40,075 nt of DNA, from the NCBI GenBank assembly GCA_017402445.1, contig JAFPME010000028.1:1-40075 (forward strand). Direction: 5' to 3'. The DNA is from Prevotella sp. GTDB taxonomy: Bacteria; Bacteroidota; Bacteroidia; Bacteroidales; Bacteroidaceae. The notes beneath the pieces are model-generated. The model was not told the DNA's origin. It saw only the letters and a program-made list of their open reading frames with translations, and made no database searches. Of this stretch, positions 3,176-35,945 are shown piece after piece (position 1 is the first letter of the stretch; each line of letters begins with the position of its first letter). Both the position numbers and the translations under genes were made by a program.

Positions 3176-3510
3176 GCGTAAACAAAGAGTAGTCTGGTTG
3201 CTTTTGCGAGACCTTACCAATGAATAGTCTGAAGGTTTTATCTCAAAAATGCGATTTTTCAACAAAAGTGCCGTCTGAAGAGTAAATGCAAATGTAAACA
3301 ACCATCGAAATACATTGATATACAGCCGTTTATTCTCGAATTTTGCGTAAACAATGCATAAACACCGCGTAAACAATGCGTAAACAGAGCAAATAAAACA
3401 AAGATTTGGCTATTATTCCACGAATAAATAAGTAAAAACAAGTAGTCTGTGGGTTTTATAAATGTGGACAAATAGGCAAAAATCATGTCTGCGTAAACAA
3501 TGCGTAAACA
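3176..3510 (+). repeat. GCGTAAACA direct repeats, 11-bp phased, next to att site
   Basis: GCGTAAACA occurs at 3176, 3345, 3367, 3378, 3491 and 3502, with a variant GCATAAACA at 3356, all in the same orientation. The starts 3345-3356-3367-3378 and 3491-3502 are exactly 11 bp apart, about one helical turn, with AAT or similar bases filling each unit. The cluster lies on the element side of the tRNA fragment, where tyrosine recombinases place arm-type binding sites. The interval 3131-3625 holds no credible gene. Confidence 0.75.
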
Positions 3511-10749: not shown

Positions 10750-11133
10750 ATGAAACAGATAGAAGTGGTAGCAGCCATCATCCATGATGACCAAGGCCGT
10801 ATCTTCGCTACGCAGCGAGGATATGGTGAATGGAAAGACTGGTGGGAGTTCCCTGGTGGAAAGATGGAAACTGGCGAGACACCTGAAGAGGCTTTGCAAC
10901 GGGAGATATGGGAAGAACTGGAGACGCGGATCGTGGTGGAACGGTTCGTGGAGACGGTGGAATGGGATTATCCTCAGTTTCATCTGACCATGCACTGCTA
11001 CCTCTGTCGTGTGGAGAGTGGACATCTGGAACTGAAGGAGCACGAGGCAGCGAAGTGGCTCAACAAGGATGAACTGGAAAGCGTCAACTGGCTGCCTGCA
11101 GACAGGGAATTAGTACGGGAACTGAAATTATAA
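10750..11133 (+). CDS. MutT-type Nudix hydrolase
   Basis: This 127-residue protein has a complete Nudix box beginning at GGKMETGETPEEAL and ending REIWEEL, which supplies the metal-binding glutamates. Size and sequence fit the (deoxy)nucleoside triphosphate pyrophosphohydrolases that clean oxidised nucleotides such as 8-oxo-dGTP; the exact substrate is inferred. It lies between the YgjP-like gene (12-base gap) and vsr (6-base gap). A truncated paralogue lies at 15462-15741, sharing the TMHCYLC, VESGHLE and SVNWLPAD segments. Confidence 0.9.
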   Translation: MKQIEVVAAIIHDDQGRIFATQRGYGEWKDWWEFPGGKMETGETPEEALQREIWEELETRIVVERFVETVEWDYPQFHLTMHCYLCRVESGHLELKEHEAAKWLNKDELESVNWLPADRELVRELKL

Positions 11134-11703: not shown

Positions 11704-11853
11704 AAATACAATCATCACATATACAAGAAAAAAGATTGTAAATATTTCATACCGAAAAAAATGGGTAAAGATTTTCTTTCATTCTACGAAGACGGAAACG
11801 GTTGTTTTGTTAAAAGAATCGGACAAAACACGAAGATTTTTCTATCTGTTTTT

Positions 11854-12045
11854 CAAAATGGCTCATTTTACATCGCAAAATGGCTCATTCTGCCGTTCAG
11901 AATGAGTCATTCTGTCAAACAGAATGGCCCGTTTTCGAGAGCAAAATGAGTCATTTTGAAAGCCCAAAAAATGTAAAGAAAACACAAGTTGCTTGTTCCC
12001 AGCGTCTTATAACTTTCTCATATTTCGCGTGTACGCGTCCGCCGG
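11854..12045. repeat. Palindrome array copy A: five 17-bp palindromes, 22-bp period
   Basis: Units start at 11854, 11876, 11898, 11920 and 11942, exactly 22 bp apart. Each fits CARAATGRSYCRTTYTG or nearly so, and 5-bp spacers separate them. Units 3 and 5 are perfect palindromes. A conserved tail follows (AAAAAATGTAAAGAAAACAC near 11967, then GTACGCGTCCG near 12031). The same arrangement recurs at 35626-35820. The intergenic region 11704-12288 holds nothing else except the esterase promoter; open frames through it change register at every unit and look spurious. Confidence 0.85.
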
Positions 12046-12220
12046 CTTTTTATTTTGGAAAACGGGCCGTAATTTCGTATAATAAATGTTATTTTGTAAG
12101 CATAATTCAGCGTCTGCAAAGTCATCACCTGCAGAGGGAGAAACCACGTTCTTACAACACTTTCCTATTCCGAATCGGCGTAAGTTTATGACAATATCAG
12201 CTACATATAATCTCCTTTCA

Positions 12221-14161: not shown

Positions 14162-14194
14162 ATCCTATTTGCTCTCCCTCATTCTCCAAACAGT

Positions 14195-14255
14195 TCCCGC
14201 CATTGAGAAACACGTGACAAAAGTCCCGCCATTGACGAAACAAGTGACAAAAAAG
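14195..14255. repeat. Two tandem ~30-bp units left of the RAYT element
   Basis: TCCCGCCATTGA opens units at 14195 and 14224, each ending GTGACAAAA plus one to three bases. A third opening, TCCCGTCCATTAAA, at 14256 leads into the 33-bp repeat. The left end of the RAYT element is therefore a small stack of related repeats. Confidence 0.7.
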
Positions 14256-14285
14256 TCCCGTCCATTAAACGCGGATTCCATCCGC
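14253..14285. repeat. 33-bp repeat, left end of RAYT element
   Basis: The repeat begins AAGTCCCGTCCATTAAACGC and ends in the hairpin GCGGAT-TCC-ATCCGC. It is 31/33 identical and in the same orientation as 15429-15461. Confidence 0.85.
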
Positions 14286-15428: not shown

Positions 15429-15461
15429 AAGTCCTGTCCATTAAATGCGGATTCCATCCGC
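15429..15461. repeat. 33-bp repeat, right end of RAYT element
   Basis: This copy begins AAGTCCTGTCCATTAAATGC and ends in the same GCGGAT-TCC-ATCCGC hairpin. Nudix homology starts at the very next base, so the repeat marks the junction of a rearrangement. Confidence 0.85.
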
Positions 15462-15741
15462 CCGAGGAGACATGGAAGCGGGAGATATGGAAGGAATTGG
15501 AAACGCGCATCGTGATGGAGCGACTGGTGGAGACGCTGGAGTAGGATTATGCACAGCCGGCCGAGCCTCCTCTCGCCCGACCGCTGCCTTTCACCAGACC
15601 ATGCACTGCTATCTCTGCCATGTGGAGAGCGGTCATCTGGAACAGAAGGAGCACGAAGCGGCGAAGTGGCTCGGCAAGGATGAACGGTCGAGCGTCAACT
15701 GGCTGCCTGCCGACTGGGAACTGGTGAAGAAACAGAAATAG
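15462..15741 (+). pseudogene. Truncated Nudix hydrolase paralogue
   Basis: This is the 3' two thirds of a gene like the intact Nudix at 10750-11133. KREIWKELETRIVMERLVETLE matches the end of the Nudix box and beyond, then the Trp codon of the intact copy is TAG here (15542). A 32-bp GC-rich insertion at 15557-15588 shifts the frame, after which TMHCYLC, VESGHLE and SVNWLPAD resume to the stop at 15741. The first 40 residues are absent; the RAYT-flanking repeat replaces them. Three independent lesions make this a firm pseudogene. Confidence 0.88.
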
Positions 15742-28951: not shown

Positions 28952-30577
28952 TCACTGCTGAATCACTTCGAGCGCACGTTGCACGATGTCGTTCCGCTCG
29001 TTCATGATCTGGAAATATTCACTCATATCCCACAGGTCGCGCGCCACAAGAGCCTTGAGCTGCAGGCGCAGATAGGGCAGCGTTCGCTGCAGTTCGTCGT
29101 CGTCCTTGGGTTTCACTTTTTCCTTCTCGGCATCAACCAGAATCGTATCGATGAGTGTCTGCGGTACTTCAAATTCTCGGTTGAACAGCTCGAAGCTCTT
29201 GTACTTATTCCTGAGCTGCTTGCGGTTGTTGTCGATGTAGCGCAGGTTGTTGTTGATGATGATGTTCTTGGCTGCCAACTGACGGTGGAAGCGCGTATAT
29301 TGAAGCGTGTCCAGGGGCACGAACTCGTCGGGCATGATGCCGCCGCCGCCGTAGACGGTGCGGTGCTTGCGCAGCGTTTCGTAGCGCAGCGAGTCGCTGA
29401 AGTGTATGCTGTCACGGTTGGTCAGCTCACCGTGCTTCAGACGGTTCTCGAAATCCTGCTCGTACTCCTTCAGCTCACCTTTCTTGTACGGCTTCTGAAT
29501 GCAGCGACCCGAAGGCGTATAATAGTGAGCCACGGTCAGACGGATCATCGACTCGTCGGGCAAGTCGATAGGACGCTGCACGAGCCCCTTGCCGAAGGAG
29601 CGCCTGCCGACCACTATTCCGCGGTCCTGATCCTGTATGGCACCGGTTACAATCTCTGCCGCCGACGCCGAGAATTCGTTGACGAGCACCACGACGCGGC
29701 CCTTCTTCAGCGAACCTGATCCGTCAGCAAGATAGTCGCGGCGCTTCTGCTTGTTGCCTTCCGTGTAGACGATGAGGTCGTTGTCCTCAAGAAACTCGTT
29801 GGCAATGCGCACGGCAGCCTCCAGATAGCCTCCACCGTTCTCTTGCAAGTCCAGTATAAGACTCTCCATGCCCTGCTCCTGCAGTGTGGCCAGACCTGCC
29901 ATGAACTCCGTATAGGTGGTGGCACCGAAGTTCTCAATGCGGATGTAGCCTACGCCGGGGCGTATCATGTAGACAGCATCGATGCTCTTCACGGGAATCT
30001 TGTCGCGCGTCACGGTGAAAAAGAGCGTCTCAGCCACCGAACGGCGCTTGATGCCCAGCTTTACCTTCGTGCCACGAGGACCGCGCAGCCGCTTCATAAT
30101 CTCGTTTCGCGGCATCTTCACACCGGCAATGGACGTGTCGTTGACCGTAATGATGCGGTCGCCGGCAAGGATTCCTACCTTCTCCGACGGTCCTTTCGTA
30201 GTGGGCTGGATGACGAGCAGCGTGTCGTCAATCATGTTGAACTGCACGCCGATGCCGTCGAAGTTGCCCTGCAGCGGTTCGTTCAGTGCTTTCACCTCCT
30301 GCGGTGTGGAGTAGCTGCTGTGCGGGTCGAGCTCTTTCAGCATGCCGCGTATGGCGTCTTCCACGAGTTTTTCCTCGTTGACGGAGTCCACGTAGAGGTT
30401 GTTGATGGCCATCTCAGCATATTGCAGCTTGCTCATGGGCGAGTTCTTGCCCAGGTTGATGCGGAACTGGGCTGATGTCTCCAATGATAAGCATAGGAGC
30501 AGGAGACCCACCCCCACCCTCCCTATGAGGGAGGGAGCGATTAGCCATTTCAGATAAGATAAGGTGTTCTTAAACAT
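28952..30577 (-). CDS. S41 C-terminal processing protease with repeat-altered signal peptide
   Basis: This 541-residue periplasmic serine protease of the CtpA/Prc family has a PDZ domain (about 85-175) and a catalytic core with S305 in NEFSASAAEI and K330 in FGKG, the expected 25 residues apart. It trims unfolded or tagged proteins in the periplasm. Residues 14-25 (APSLIGRVGVGL) of the signal peptide are encoded entirely by a GC-rich palindromic repeat (30505-30538), so the hydrophobic core is extended and contains Gly and Arg. A shorter signal peptide would remain if the repeat were removed in frame. The gene is downstream of the DUF559 relic and parE. Confidence 0.92.
   Translation of the reverse strand: MFKNTLSYLKWLIAPSLIGRVGVGLLLLCLSLETSAQFRINLGKNSPMSKLQYAEMAINNLYVDSVNEEKLVEDAIRGMLKELDPHSSYSTPQEVKALNEPLQGNFDGIGVQFNMIDDTLLVIQPTTKGPSEKVGILAGDRIITVNDTSIAGVKMPRNEIMKRLRGPRGTKVKLGIKRRSVAETLFFTVTRDKIPVKSIDAVYMIRPGVGYIRIENFGATTYTEFMAGLATLQEQGMESLILDLQENGGGYLEAAVRIANEFLEDNDLIVYTEGNKQKRRDYLADGSGSLKKGRVVVLVNEFSASAAEIVTGAIQDQDRGIVVGRRSFGKGLVQRPIDLPDESMIRLTVAHYYTPSGRCIQKPYKKGELKEYEQDFENRLKHGELTNRDSIHFSDSLRYETLRKHRTVYGGGGIMPDEFVPLDTLQYTRFHRQLAAKNIIINNNLRYIDNNRKQLRNKYKSFELFNREFEVPQTLIDTILVDAEKEKVKPKDDDELQRTLPYLRLQLKALVARDLWDMSEYFQIMNERNDIVQRALEVIQQ
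30505..30538. repeat. GC-rich palindromic repeat, copy inside the protease signal peptide
   Basis: GACCCACCCCCA is followed by the hairpin CCCTCCC-TAT-GAGGGAGGG and AGC. It is an almost exact inverted copy of 31016-31050 and a relative of 11355-11394. Confidence 0.85.
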
Positions 30578-30970: not shown

Positions 30971-31015
30971 ATTAATAAACTGATATTCGCAACAAAACAC
31001 TCAAAAAGAGCAATT

Positions 31016-31050
31016 GCTCCCTCCCTCATAGGGAGGGCGGGGGGTGGGTC
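31016..31050. repeat. GC-rich palindromic repeat, copy at the parE stop codon
   Basis: This is the reverse complement of 30505-30538 with a one-base length difference in the lead (CCCCCCG against CCCCCA). Its last base is the outer base of the parE stop codon. Confidence 0.85.
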
Positions 31051-35417: not shown

Positions 35418-35625
35418 AAGTACTGACCAAAAAAAGAACACAGCGTGGCAGCTGCGTCGCTTTTTTAAACGACGCCTGCACTCCCGTCTACTCTCCAAGT
35501 CCTAATTTTCTTCAAGATTTTTTTCCAAAAAAAACTGCACGGATTTTTTTCAATTCTGGAGAGACGAAAGCTCTTGAAACGCGAAAAAATCCTGTCAAAA
35601 ACGCGAGAAAAATGGTTCGGTTTTT

Positions 35626-35820
35626 CAGAATGAGCCGTTTTGCATCGCAAAATGGCTCGTTTTGCTCGTCAGAATGGCTCATTCTGCGCGACAAAAAGGC
35701 CCGTTTTGAAGTGTAAAATGAGCCATTTTAGAAGCCGAAAAAATGTAAAGAAAACACAAGTCGTTCGTTTCCAGCCGTTTGCAACATTCGCGAGAATCGC
35801 GCGTACGCGTCCGTCGGACA
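35626..35820. repeat. Palindrome array copy B: five 17-bp palindromes, 22-bp period
   Basis: Units start at 35626, 35648, 35670, 35692 and 35714, again exactly 22 bp apart with 5-bp spacers (the first spacer, CATCG, is the same as in copy A). A weak extra unit may lie near 35608. The tail again has AAAAAATGTAAAGAAAACAC and, further on, GTACGCGTCCG. Apart from the endonuclease promoter and the terminator at 35946, the gap 35366-36002 holds nothing else that I can support. Confidence 0.85.
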
Positions 35821-35945
35821 AAAAATTCAGAACGATGGCACTCACAGAGCGCAAAAACGACTTTTTTGTCCTGATATTTCAGAAAGCGAGATGCGAACGA
35901 CGCGATGCCCGTTACACCCGTTCGGGTCGTCACATCGCAGACGAA

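Follow-up and report, generated by a model that had tools for sequence, protein, structure and literature searches.

Arrays of phased palindromes dispersed between the genes of Prevotella: candidate docking sites for a dimeric DNA-binding protein

Several Prevotella genomes hold about 80–100 arrays of four or five short palindromes, in which the spelling is specific to the species and the geometry is kept. Two of these arrays lie in the window, i.e., the whole 40,075-nucleotide stretch of Prevotella sp. DNA that was analysed. From sequence comparisons, there seems to be an even chance that the arrays are chromosome-wide docking sites for the dimers of one sequence-specific DNA-binding protein, whose role would most likely be architectural. 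The genome of the window is referred to as G000; G248, G085, G218 and G108 are other genomes which were compared to it.

According to this proposal, each array would offer several dimers of one protein a place to dock on double-stranded DNA. The dimers would occupy 17-bp dyads which are separated by two helical turns and hence lie on the same side of the helix, with five dyads per array in G000 and usually four in G085. About 80–100 or more such arrays per genome would lie between genes, regardless of the direction of these genes, rarely less than about 7 kb from one another and most often, in G000, at 10–16 kb. They would act as anchor or domain-boundary sites, each serving several kilobases around it, and a second array nearby would be redundant or harmful. 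Since the spelling changes between species, the reader protein and its sites must change together; we infer both the dimeric protein and its co-evolution with the sites.

The elements of the window and their copies in the same genome

The first array of the window is composed of five 17-bp near-palindromes, which begin at positions 11854, 11876, 11898, 11920 and 11942 with a pitch of exactly 22 bp, as the original prediction had it; the palindrome consensus is CARAATGRSYCRTTYTG, in the spelling given there. The window contains 20 strand matches to this palindrome (at most two mismatches), compared to a mean of 0.48 and a maximum of 6 in 100 shuffled sequences. A second array with the same unit number, period, tail and orientation had been announced about 24 kb away, and it is indeed found at a distance of 23,772 bp, with units beginning at 35626, 35648, 35670, 35692 and 35714. 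The two arrays are 77% identical across 201 bp and both have the GTACGCGTCCG tail.

A gapless alignment of 77 copies from G000 on unit 1 gives conserved columns from about -119 to +258, and conservation is near zero beyond. The element consists of a leader of about 119 bp, five palindromes and a tail of about 153 bp; the tail was correctly predicted to be conserved, but the real element, of about 377 bp in total, is longer than was first stated. Both elements of the window are on the forward strand, at about 11735–12111 and 35507–35883. The leader of element 1 (11735–11853, about 119 bp, defined by gapless column conservation in the 77 copies) has a TTGTAAA-type motif near its start and a T-run before unit 1. 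It is followed by unit 1 (11854–11870), unit 2 (11876–11892), unit 3 (11898–11914), unit 4 (11920–11936), which is the least symmetric unit of the family, and unit 5 (11942–11958), all 17-bp palindromes, and then by the tail (11959–12111), which comprises a AAAAAATGTAAAGAAAACACAAG block, the GTACGCGTCCG block and a TTTTGTAAGCATAATTCAG end. In element 2, the leader (35507–35625, from column conservation) precedes units 1 to 5 (35626–35642, 35648–35664, 35670–35686, 35692–35708 and 35714–35730). The right end of the element exists in two subtypes among the G000 copies, and the tail of element 2 (35731–35883), which ends near TTTTTTGTCCTGATATTTCAG, has the other subtype.

Other repeats are present in the window. 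A tandem array of 11-bp units (TGCGTAAACAA) lies at 3344–3397 and 3490–3510, with a further copy 113 bp on; the unit is about one helical turn long and its sequence differs from the array palindromes. A 29–30-bp tandem repeat is found at 14187–14285, and its 33-bp end stretch recurs 1.2 kb away, at 15429–15461 (94%). A G/C-rich sequence with CCTCCC/GGGAGG is present in two inverted copies, at 30511–30542 and 31012–31043; G248 has a similar repeat, CCTCCCCTCGGGGAGG (L157, 1795–1950), and this looks like another dispersed family. Lastly, 10882–11128 and 15461–15739 contain two direct repeats in series, one of 96 nt (77%) and the other of 151 nt (83%), which correspond to a duplicated gene stretch, presumably Nudix-like as judged by eye.

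The G000 assembly (1.87 Mb in 44 contigs, 50.7% complete) was read over 1,736,808 bases (93%), with a scan that required at least two units and listed single units only at one mismatch or less. In the DNA search, 40 of 85 candidates were scored and yielded 62 matches; the reading gave 77 arrays, one per 22.6 kb. In 76 of the 77, all five units are within three mismatches of the consensus and the spacings are 22, 22, 22 and 22; the exception is C10:1792, in which the second unit is more degenerate. Truncated or expanded arrays were not found by the scan for two or more units in this 93% of the assembly, and the bases read contain one solo unit at one mismatch or less. Rather than two copies only, or copies with random spacing or unit number, G000 thus has 77 arrays on a fixed grid, and the two of the window are nothing special, being 2 of these 77.

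The position of the arrays relative to genes, whose tabulation had been recommended at the outset, was determined with genes predicted by in-house codon-score ORF calling. The cores of 75 of the 77 arrays are outside predicted genes, and for 74 of the 77 elements, any overlap with a predicted gene is limited to 60 bp. All gene contexts are used: 20 arrays are between convergent genes, 33 between co-directional and 15 between divergent ones, and 9 have no predicted gene on one side. The orientation shared by the two window copies is not a rule, since neighbouring arrays agree in 18 of 49 cases (two copies being mis-oriented in that count). No gene family stands out beside the arrays, the best p value being 0.015, uncorrected, and a gene-linked operator was rejected for lack of a neighbouring gene family. 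A plasmid or phage origin was rejected as well, no blastn match being found.

The intergenic position could also be that of a regulatory element, such as an operator, promoter or terminator used across many operons. Convergent pairs are slightly enriched (20 of the 68 copies which have both neighbours, vs 48 of 225 intergenic gaps of at least 300 bp in G000; 7 of 19 arrays in G085), and segments of the BrickBuilt repeat carry promoter elements in P. gingivalis, according to the available part of its description (PMC4596501). This explanation is nonetheless improbable: every gene orientation is used, the arrays share no adjoining gene family, and a regulon does not explain why the sites avoid one another.

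One geometry, many spellings

Queried as DNA, the array matches none of 59 relatives at E ≤ 0.001. Across the genus, 32 of 398 genomes have some match at E ≤ 0.01 and near-full-length matches occur only in G248 and in the genome of origin, with two candidates scored per genome. A model built from 95 cores has matches at E ≤ 0.001 in 119 of the 398 genomes, and in 63 of the 175 good ones (eight candidates scored each). Among 28 loci taken from these matches, 26 have 22 as their best period, with other palindromes; these loci were preselected with a model that contains the 22-bp grid, so the unbiased evidence is that of scans which are blind to the sequence. Such a scan of 400 kb of G085 and of two G000 contigs gives 6, 27 and 19 four-unit phased dyads, respectively, at a score of at least 20 with period 22, compared to 0–2 for each of the other periods between 16 and 30. 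Similarly, of 80 gltX loci of Prevotellaceae (1.46 Mb), 18 contain a total of 22 clusters with period 22; any other period between 17 and 28 yields 0–3 clusters, and three shuffled versions yield none. The gltX scan demands four units and is therefore silent on the unit number, and a few of its matches, e.g., L267 and L302, do not resemble arrays. The palindromes found elsewhere include CAAAAGCTTAGCTTTTG in P. brunnea, ATTCCCACGTTGGGAAC in Prevotella sp. RUG047 and GTACAAGGCCCATGTAC in Prevotella sp. RGIG4872. The sequence-blind scan detected no array in the loci of P. disiens (L239) and P. pallens (L238), of about 21.5 kb each, nor in the 21.5 kb of the laboratory rumen strain B14 (L244).

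In G085, the dyads are of the CAAATTCGnCGAATTTG type. Over the 400 kb read, 18 of 19 arrays have four units and one has three, and by eye they have no evident long leader or tail. The G085 contig of 2,685,380 bp carries at least 84 arrays (66 near-full-length, 17 partial, and one known from the 400-kb reading), mapped by scoring 150 candidates with a model derived from 18 arrays; 18 of the 19 arrays of that reading are among the matches listed. In G218, 97 arrays were found with the model R1 (150 candidates scored). The arrays among the matches listed for G085 occupy every 200-kb bin of the contig and the largest void is 119 kb, for which reason a site linked to the origin or terminus was rejected.

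The largest void within the 400 kb of G085 (C1 103–174 kb, L217–L220) is a stretch of 70 kb without arrays, in which a scan of 45 proteins identified contractile-injection (eCIS) genes, DDE transposases and an ATP-synthase operon. In a control with 45 of the 153 proteins of array-rich G085 stretches, no transposase is among the 25 of 74 families listed. Array voids may be foreign DNA.

The variation between copies bears on the way in which the dyads are recognised. Watson–Crick pairs number 2463 in the G000 dyads (77 copies, 40 dyad positions), where 2467 are expected from independent columns; G.T and A.C combinations number 248 and 259, with no strand asymmetry, in 3080 cells. The largest single departure from independence is in unit 5, whose columns 8 and 10 are paired in 61 copies vs 43 expected. 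The values are similar in G248 (802 pairs vs 800 expected, 28 copies) and G085 (336 vs 352, 18 copies). RNA or single-stranded DNA hairpins should show changes matched between the arms, or G.U on one strand, and there is no such signal overall. The half-sites thus appear to be constrained one by one, as they would be in duplex DNA read by the two subunits of a dimer. The dyads recur every 22 bp, i.e., at two helical turns, with half-sites about every 11 bp, so dimers would align on one face.

The same counts bear on the idea that the element is a structured non-coding RNA with five short hairpins, which is hardly credible. The dyads could fold and the conservation of the element is gapless, but there is no overall compensatory or G.U signal and no strand asymmetry in the 3080 cells, Rfam gives no match in the window at the gathering score, and the palindromes vary freely among species. 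RNA hairpins were disfavoured on the basis of the pair counts and of the Rfam result. Curvature due to phased A-tracts was also discarded as a common feature, some palindromes being devoid of A-tracts (e.g., GTACAAGGCCCATGTAC in L282). A separate observation concerns the linkers of G000: within a copy, linker 2–3 is less complementary to linker 3–4 than expected (0.15 vs 0.36 when shuffled). This looks like avoidance of a long hairpin around unit 3, and the existence of two subfamilies may also cause this effect.

The evolution of the sites was followed by comparing G000 to G248, from which the 30 best-matching loci, not a random sample, were fetched. By their scores, 29 of these have five units in phase; in the remaining one, L176, the sequence is broken by Ns. 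About 12 of the 30 lie next to a gene whose orthologue flanks a G000 array (within about 610 bp), and the others are not shared. Nine shared-position pairs were hand-picked from these approximately 12 candidates. Compared without gaps, 93–100% of the half-site core columns agree, vs 30–80% of the linker columns, and the leaders and tails have 0–7 indels each. Given that the core columns hardly vary across the whole set of copies, this agreement shows upkeep, either by selection or by conversion.

Seven of the nine G248 arrays are clearly closer to the other copies of their own species (mean identity 0.83–0.88) than to their positional counterpart (0.66–0.76). The two others are L154 (0.78 to own-species copies vs 0.81 to the counterpart) and L161 (0.86 vs 0.90), the latter in a segment which is 98% identical over 3.2 kb. 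The mean identity between arrays is 0.755 within G000, 0.845 within G248 and 0.717 between the two, i.e., the species-wide similarity is clear in G248 and weak in G000. The right end of L163 is near-identical to its counterpart and then diverges in the manner of the arrays, which suggests the kind of pattern that gene conversion would leave. It appears from these comparisons that the sites persist at their positions and that their spelling, in G248 at least, is rewritten across copies, in what would be a concerted change. With the distant G085, positions are not conserved: 4 of 23 flanking genes are shared, against a background of 13%.

Distances between arrays and candidate proteins

The most surprising feature of the arrays is that they avoid close neighbours, which is common to three species with three different palindromes. 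The shortest of the 49 gaps between neighbours located on the same G000 contig is 6,684 bp; the median is 14,979 bp and the mean 19,211 bp. None of the 49 is below 6.6 kb, whereas random intergenic placement (5000 trials of each randomisation) predicts 17.0 such gaps when arrays are placed freely and 14.8 when their number per contig is fixed, and never fewer than 5. In G085, a single gap out of 84 is shorter than 8 kb vs 18.4 expected, for the arrays among the matches listed and uniform random points. In G218, the minimum gap among the 97 arrays is 6,780 bp; contig C1 has 79 gaps, none of which is shorter than 6.6 kb (14.3 expected) and 2 of which are shorter than 8 kb (17.0 expected), also with uniform random points. 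The median gaps of 25.7 kb in G085 and 23.5 kb in G218 come from incomplete maps, which miss some arrays and therefore lengthen the gaps.

For the most part, the gaps fit an exclusion followed by a random tail, which extends up to 119 kb in G085. Gaps of 10–16 kb number 23 in G000 vs 14 expected under a model with a 6.5-kb exclusion and an exponential; the excess is modest (bootstrap p = 0.036, plain KS p = 0.15). The distance rule has exceptions: G085 has one gap of 4.7 kb, and among the six arrays in 100 kb of G108, one gap measures about 3.3 kb.

The main rival of the architectural proposal is a mobile element with target immunity, which we consider unlikely but far from negligible. The arrays would belong to a MITE-like, non-autonomous element, moved in trans by a transposase that binds the phased dyads; target immunity of the kind of Mu and Tn7 would produce the avoidance, and the spelling would follow the transposase. 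The transposase sites of Mu and Tn7 are about 22 bp long, which counts in favour of this explanation, and the gaps are reasonably well accounted for by exclusion with a random tail. Copies are unshared between G000 and G248, and the elements have sharp edges. One near-empty site was found, which carries extra genes: at L157 of G248, about 1.57 kb (358–1925) containing small reading frames and an array correspond to about 14 bp in G000 (C23:8108–8123). The ends have TGTAAA-type motifs, which by eye are direct in G000 and resemble imperfect inverted repeats in G108.

Several observations speak against mobility: both G000 and G248 retain the half-sites at single loci, truncated copies were not found in the bases read of G000, inspection of the G000 ends by eye reveals neither clear terminal inverted repeats nor clear target duplications, and no gene family is linked to the arrays. 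In addition, PINSR, a repeat of P. intermedia which is discussed below, has about three quarters of its sites in common between two strains and no terminal inverted repeats, as far as the available part of the article describes it (PMC4755523).

Some motifs recur at the borders. Next to 53 arrays, from 47 loci, TGTAAAA and GATAATC are over-represented relative to a background which is not matched for intergenic A+T, and a TGTAAA-type motif (TTTTGTAAAGATAATTC) occurs at the ends of the G108 element, with a variant form in G000. These end and flank motifs are possibly the site of a second protein.

A co-occurring DNA-binding protein, which the original prediction proposed to look for, was sought in 12 genomes, and no reader emerged among the Lrp/AsnC, RAYT and HU-HIG candidates. 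Lrp/AsnC proteins, which bind phased dyads as rings of dimers, are present in 12 of 12 genomes. Of 28 matches, 27 were handled; 18 gave a reading frame, of which 14 are Lrp-like. Their helices, which we take to be the recognition helices, are VSRAAIHQRVQ[HR]L (5 frames), VSGAAIHQRIQKL (7) and LTPTPVFERQKRL (2), and are constant in each group across differing palindromes. They do not account for a species-specific spelling, and Lrp/AsnC is disfavoured as the reader for this reason. HU-HIG proteins are also found in 12 of 12 genomes, but in 9 of 14 control genomes as well, so that these matches indicate nothing specific to the arrays. In the search for Mu-type transposases, the controls were silent.

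The original prediction offered a composite REP-like element as an alternative. Such a REP/BIME would result from the action of a RAYT (Y1) transposase on single-stranded DNA hairpins, and the many dispersed intergenic palindromes, together with Y1_Tnp matches above the cut-off in 5 of 12 genomes, including G000 (one match, 31.4 bits) and G085, are what it would lead one to expect. The alternative is very improbable and found no support. Y1_Tnp has no match in 6 of the 12 genomes (G248, G108, G157, G259, G269 and G402), two of which, G248 (76% complete) and G108 (99% complete), have arrays that were read directly; RAYT is disfavoured as the reader on this account. There is moreover no overall hairpin covariation, the unit number is fixed, and, apart from one single unit at one mismatch or less, no solo or odd-numbered units were found in the bases read of G000.

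Returning to the architectural proposal, the original idea of phased sites for a dimeric chromosome-organising protein is supported as far as phased, dimer-type duplex sites are concerned, by the independence of the half-sites, the invariant geometry and the intergenic cores. The organising role is more conjectural: a placement which is genome-wide, independent of the gene context and mutually avoiding would fit it. Several points count against it: the gaps mostly follow exclusion and a random tail, with a weak excess at 10–16 kb; the short gaps of G085 and G108 break the distance rule; positions are unconserved between distant species and many are unshared between G000 and G248; no reader was matched and the Lrp/AsnC helices are constant; and the species-wide similarity is weak in G000, where columns 8 and 10 of unit 5 tend to pair.

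To our knowledge, little has been established about what organises the chromosomes of Bacteroidota. If the proposal is true, a site which tiles the chromosome at a minimum distance, with a near-fixed number of dimers, gives a handle on domain organisation in this phylum. It would also be a natural experiment on how about 100 sites and their reader shift specificity together.

Comparison with known repeats and binding sites

The architecture of the arrays, their spacing rule and the turnover of their code were not found described in the literature searched, including the available parts of the texts on PINSR and BrickBuilt. Tentatively, and with a probability which falls somewhat short of even, the arrays may represent a new class of architectural site, in which the geometry is conserved genus-wide and the code is rewritten in each lineage with a fast-evolving reader, as a bacterial analogue of boundary elements.

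REP and BIME elements are dispersed intergenic palindromes with a high copy number and a lineage-specific sequence, and the arrays resemble them in all these respects, including the lineage-specific spelling. They differ from them by their fixed number and phase, the lack of visible hairpin selection, the dispensable RAYT and the avoidance of close neighbours. The sites of nucleoid proteins (NBS/Noc, SBS/SlmA, matS/MatP and parS/ParB) are single dyads whose spelling is widely conserved and which follow chromosome-scale gradients. Like the arrays, they are palindromic duplex-DNA sites scattered over the chromosome, whereas the arrays have four or five phased dyads, a species-specific spelling and, in G085, no empty 200-kb bin. 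Closer in their layout are the octamer sites of Lrp/AsnC and the iterons or parC of plasmids, where several dyads or half-sites follow one another at whole helical turns; iterons are confined to a single locus and the arrays are chromosome-wide.

BrickBuilt, in P. gingivalis, is also dispersed and intergenic, and consists of a leader, tandem bricks of 23 nt and a tail (PMC4596501). According to the available text, the number of bricks ranges from 1 to 22.8, and 8 of the 19 copies of strain ATCC 33277 are without leader, tail or both; the terminal inverted repeats are like those of IS elements (PMC4596501). The brick, AGAYCATARTATCCTCTCRTRTG, has 23 nt, a variable number and, by eye, no 17-bp odd palindrome, so that it does not match the window arrays, with their five units at 22 bp.

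The closest known repeat is PINSR, a 188-bp intergenic repeat of P. intermedia whose function is unexplained (Naito et al. 2015, PMC4755523). In the part of this article which is available, 177 and 184 copies are reported in genomes of 3.15 and 2.70 Mb, and PCR was positive for P. falsenii and P. disiens and negative for P. pallens (PMC4755523). Like the arrays of the window, PINSR is intergenic, apparently non-coding and dispersed in high copy number. The densities are comparable, with one copy per 15–18 kb for PINSR and one array per 22.6 kb in G000, where the median gap is 15.0 kb. The lengths are not: the element of the window has about 377 bp, five units and another spelling. The available text on PINSR mentions no palindromes, phasing or spacing rule and finds the repeat in only one Prevotella clade (PMC4755523).

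The link comes from G108, a genome close to P. falsenii (97% identity between the GltX proteins). Its element is 189 bp long, from TTTTGTAAA to ATTTACA, in four of five anchored copies, and the P. falsenii element also has 189 bp, in one copy. Judging from clade, length, density and position, PINSR would correspond to the G108 element and is probably the P. intermedia-group member of the array system. If this membership is true, PINSR gains a concrete anatomy and a place in a genus-wide system.
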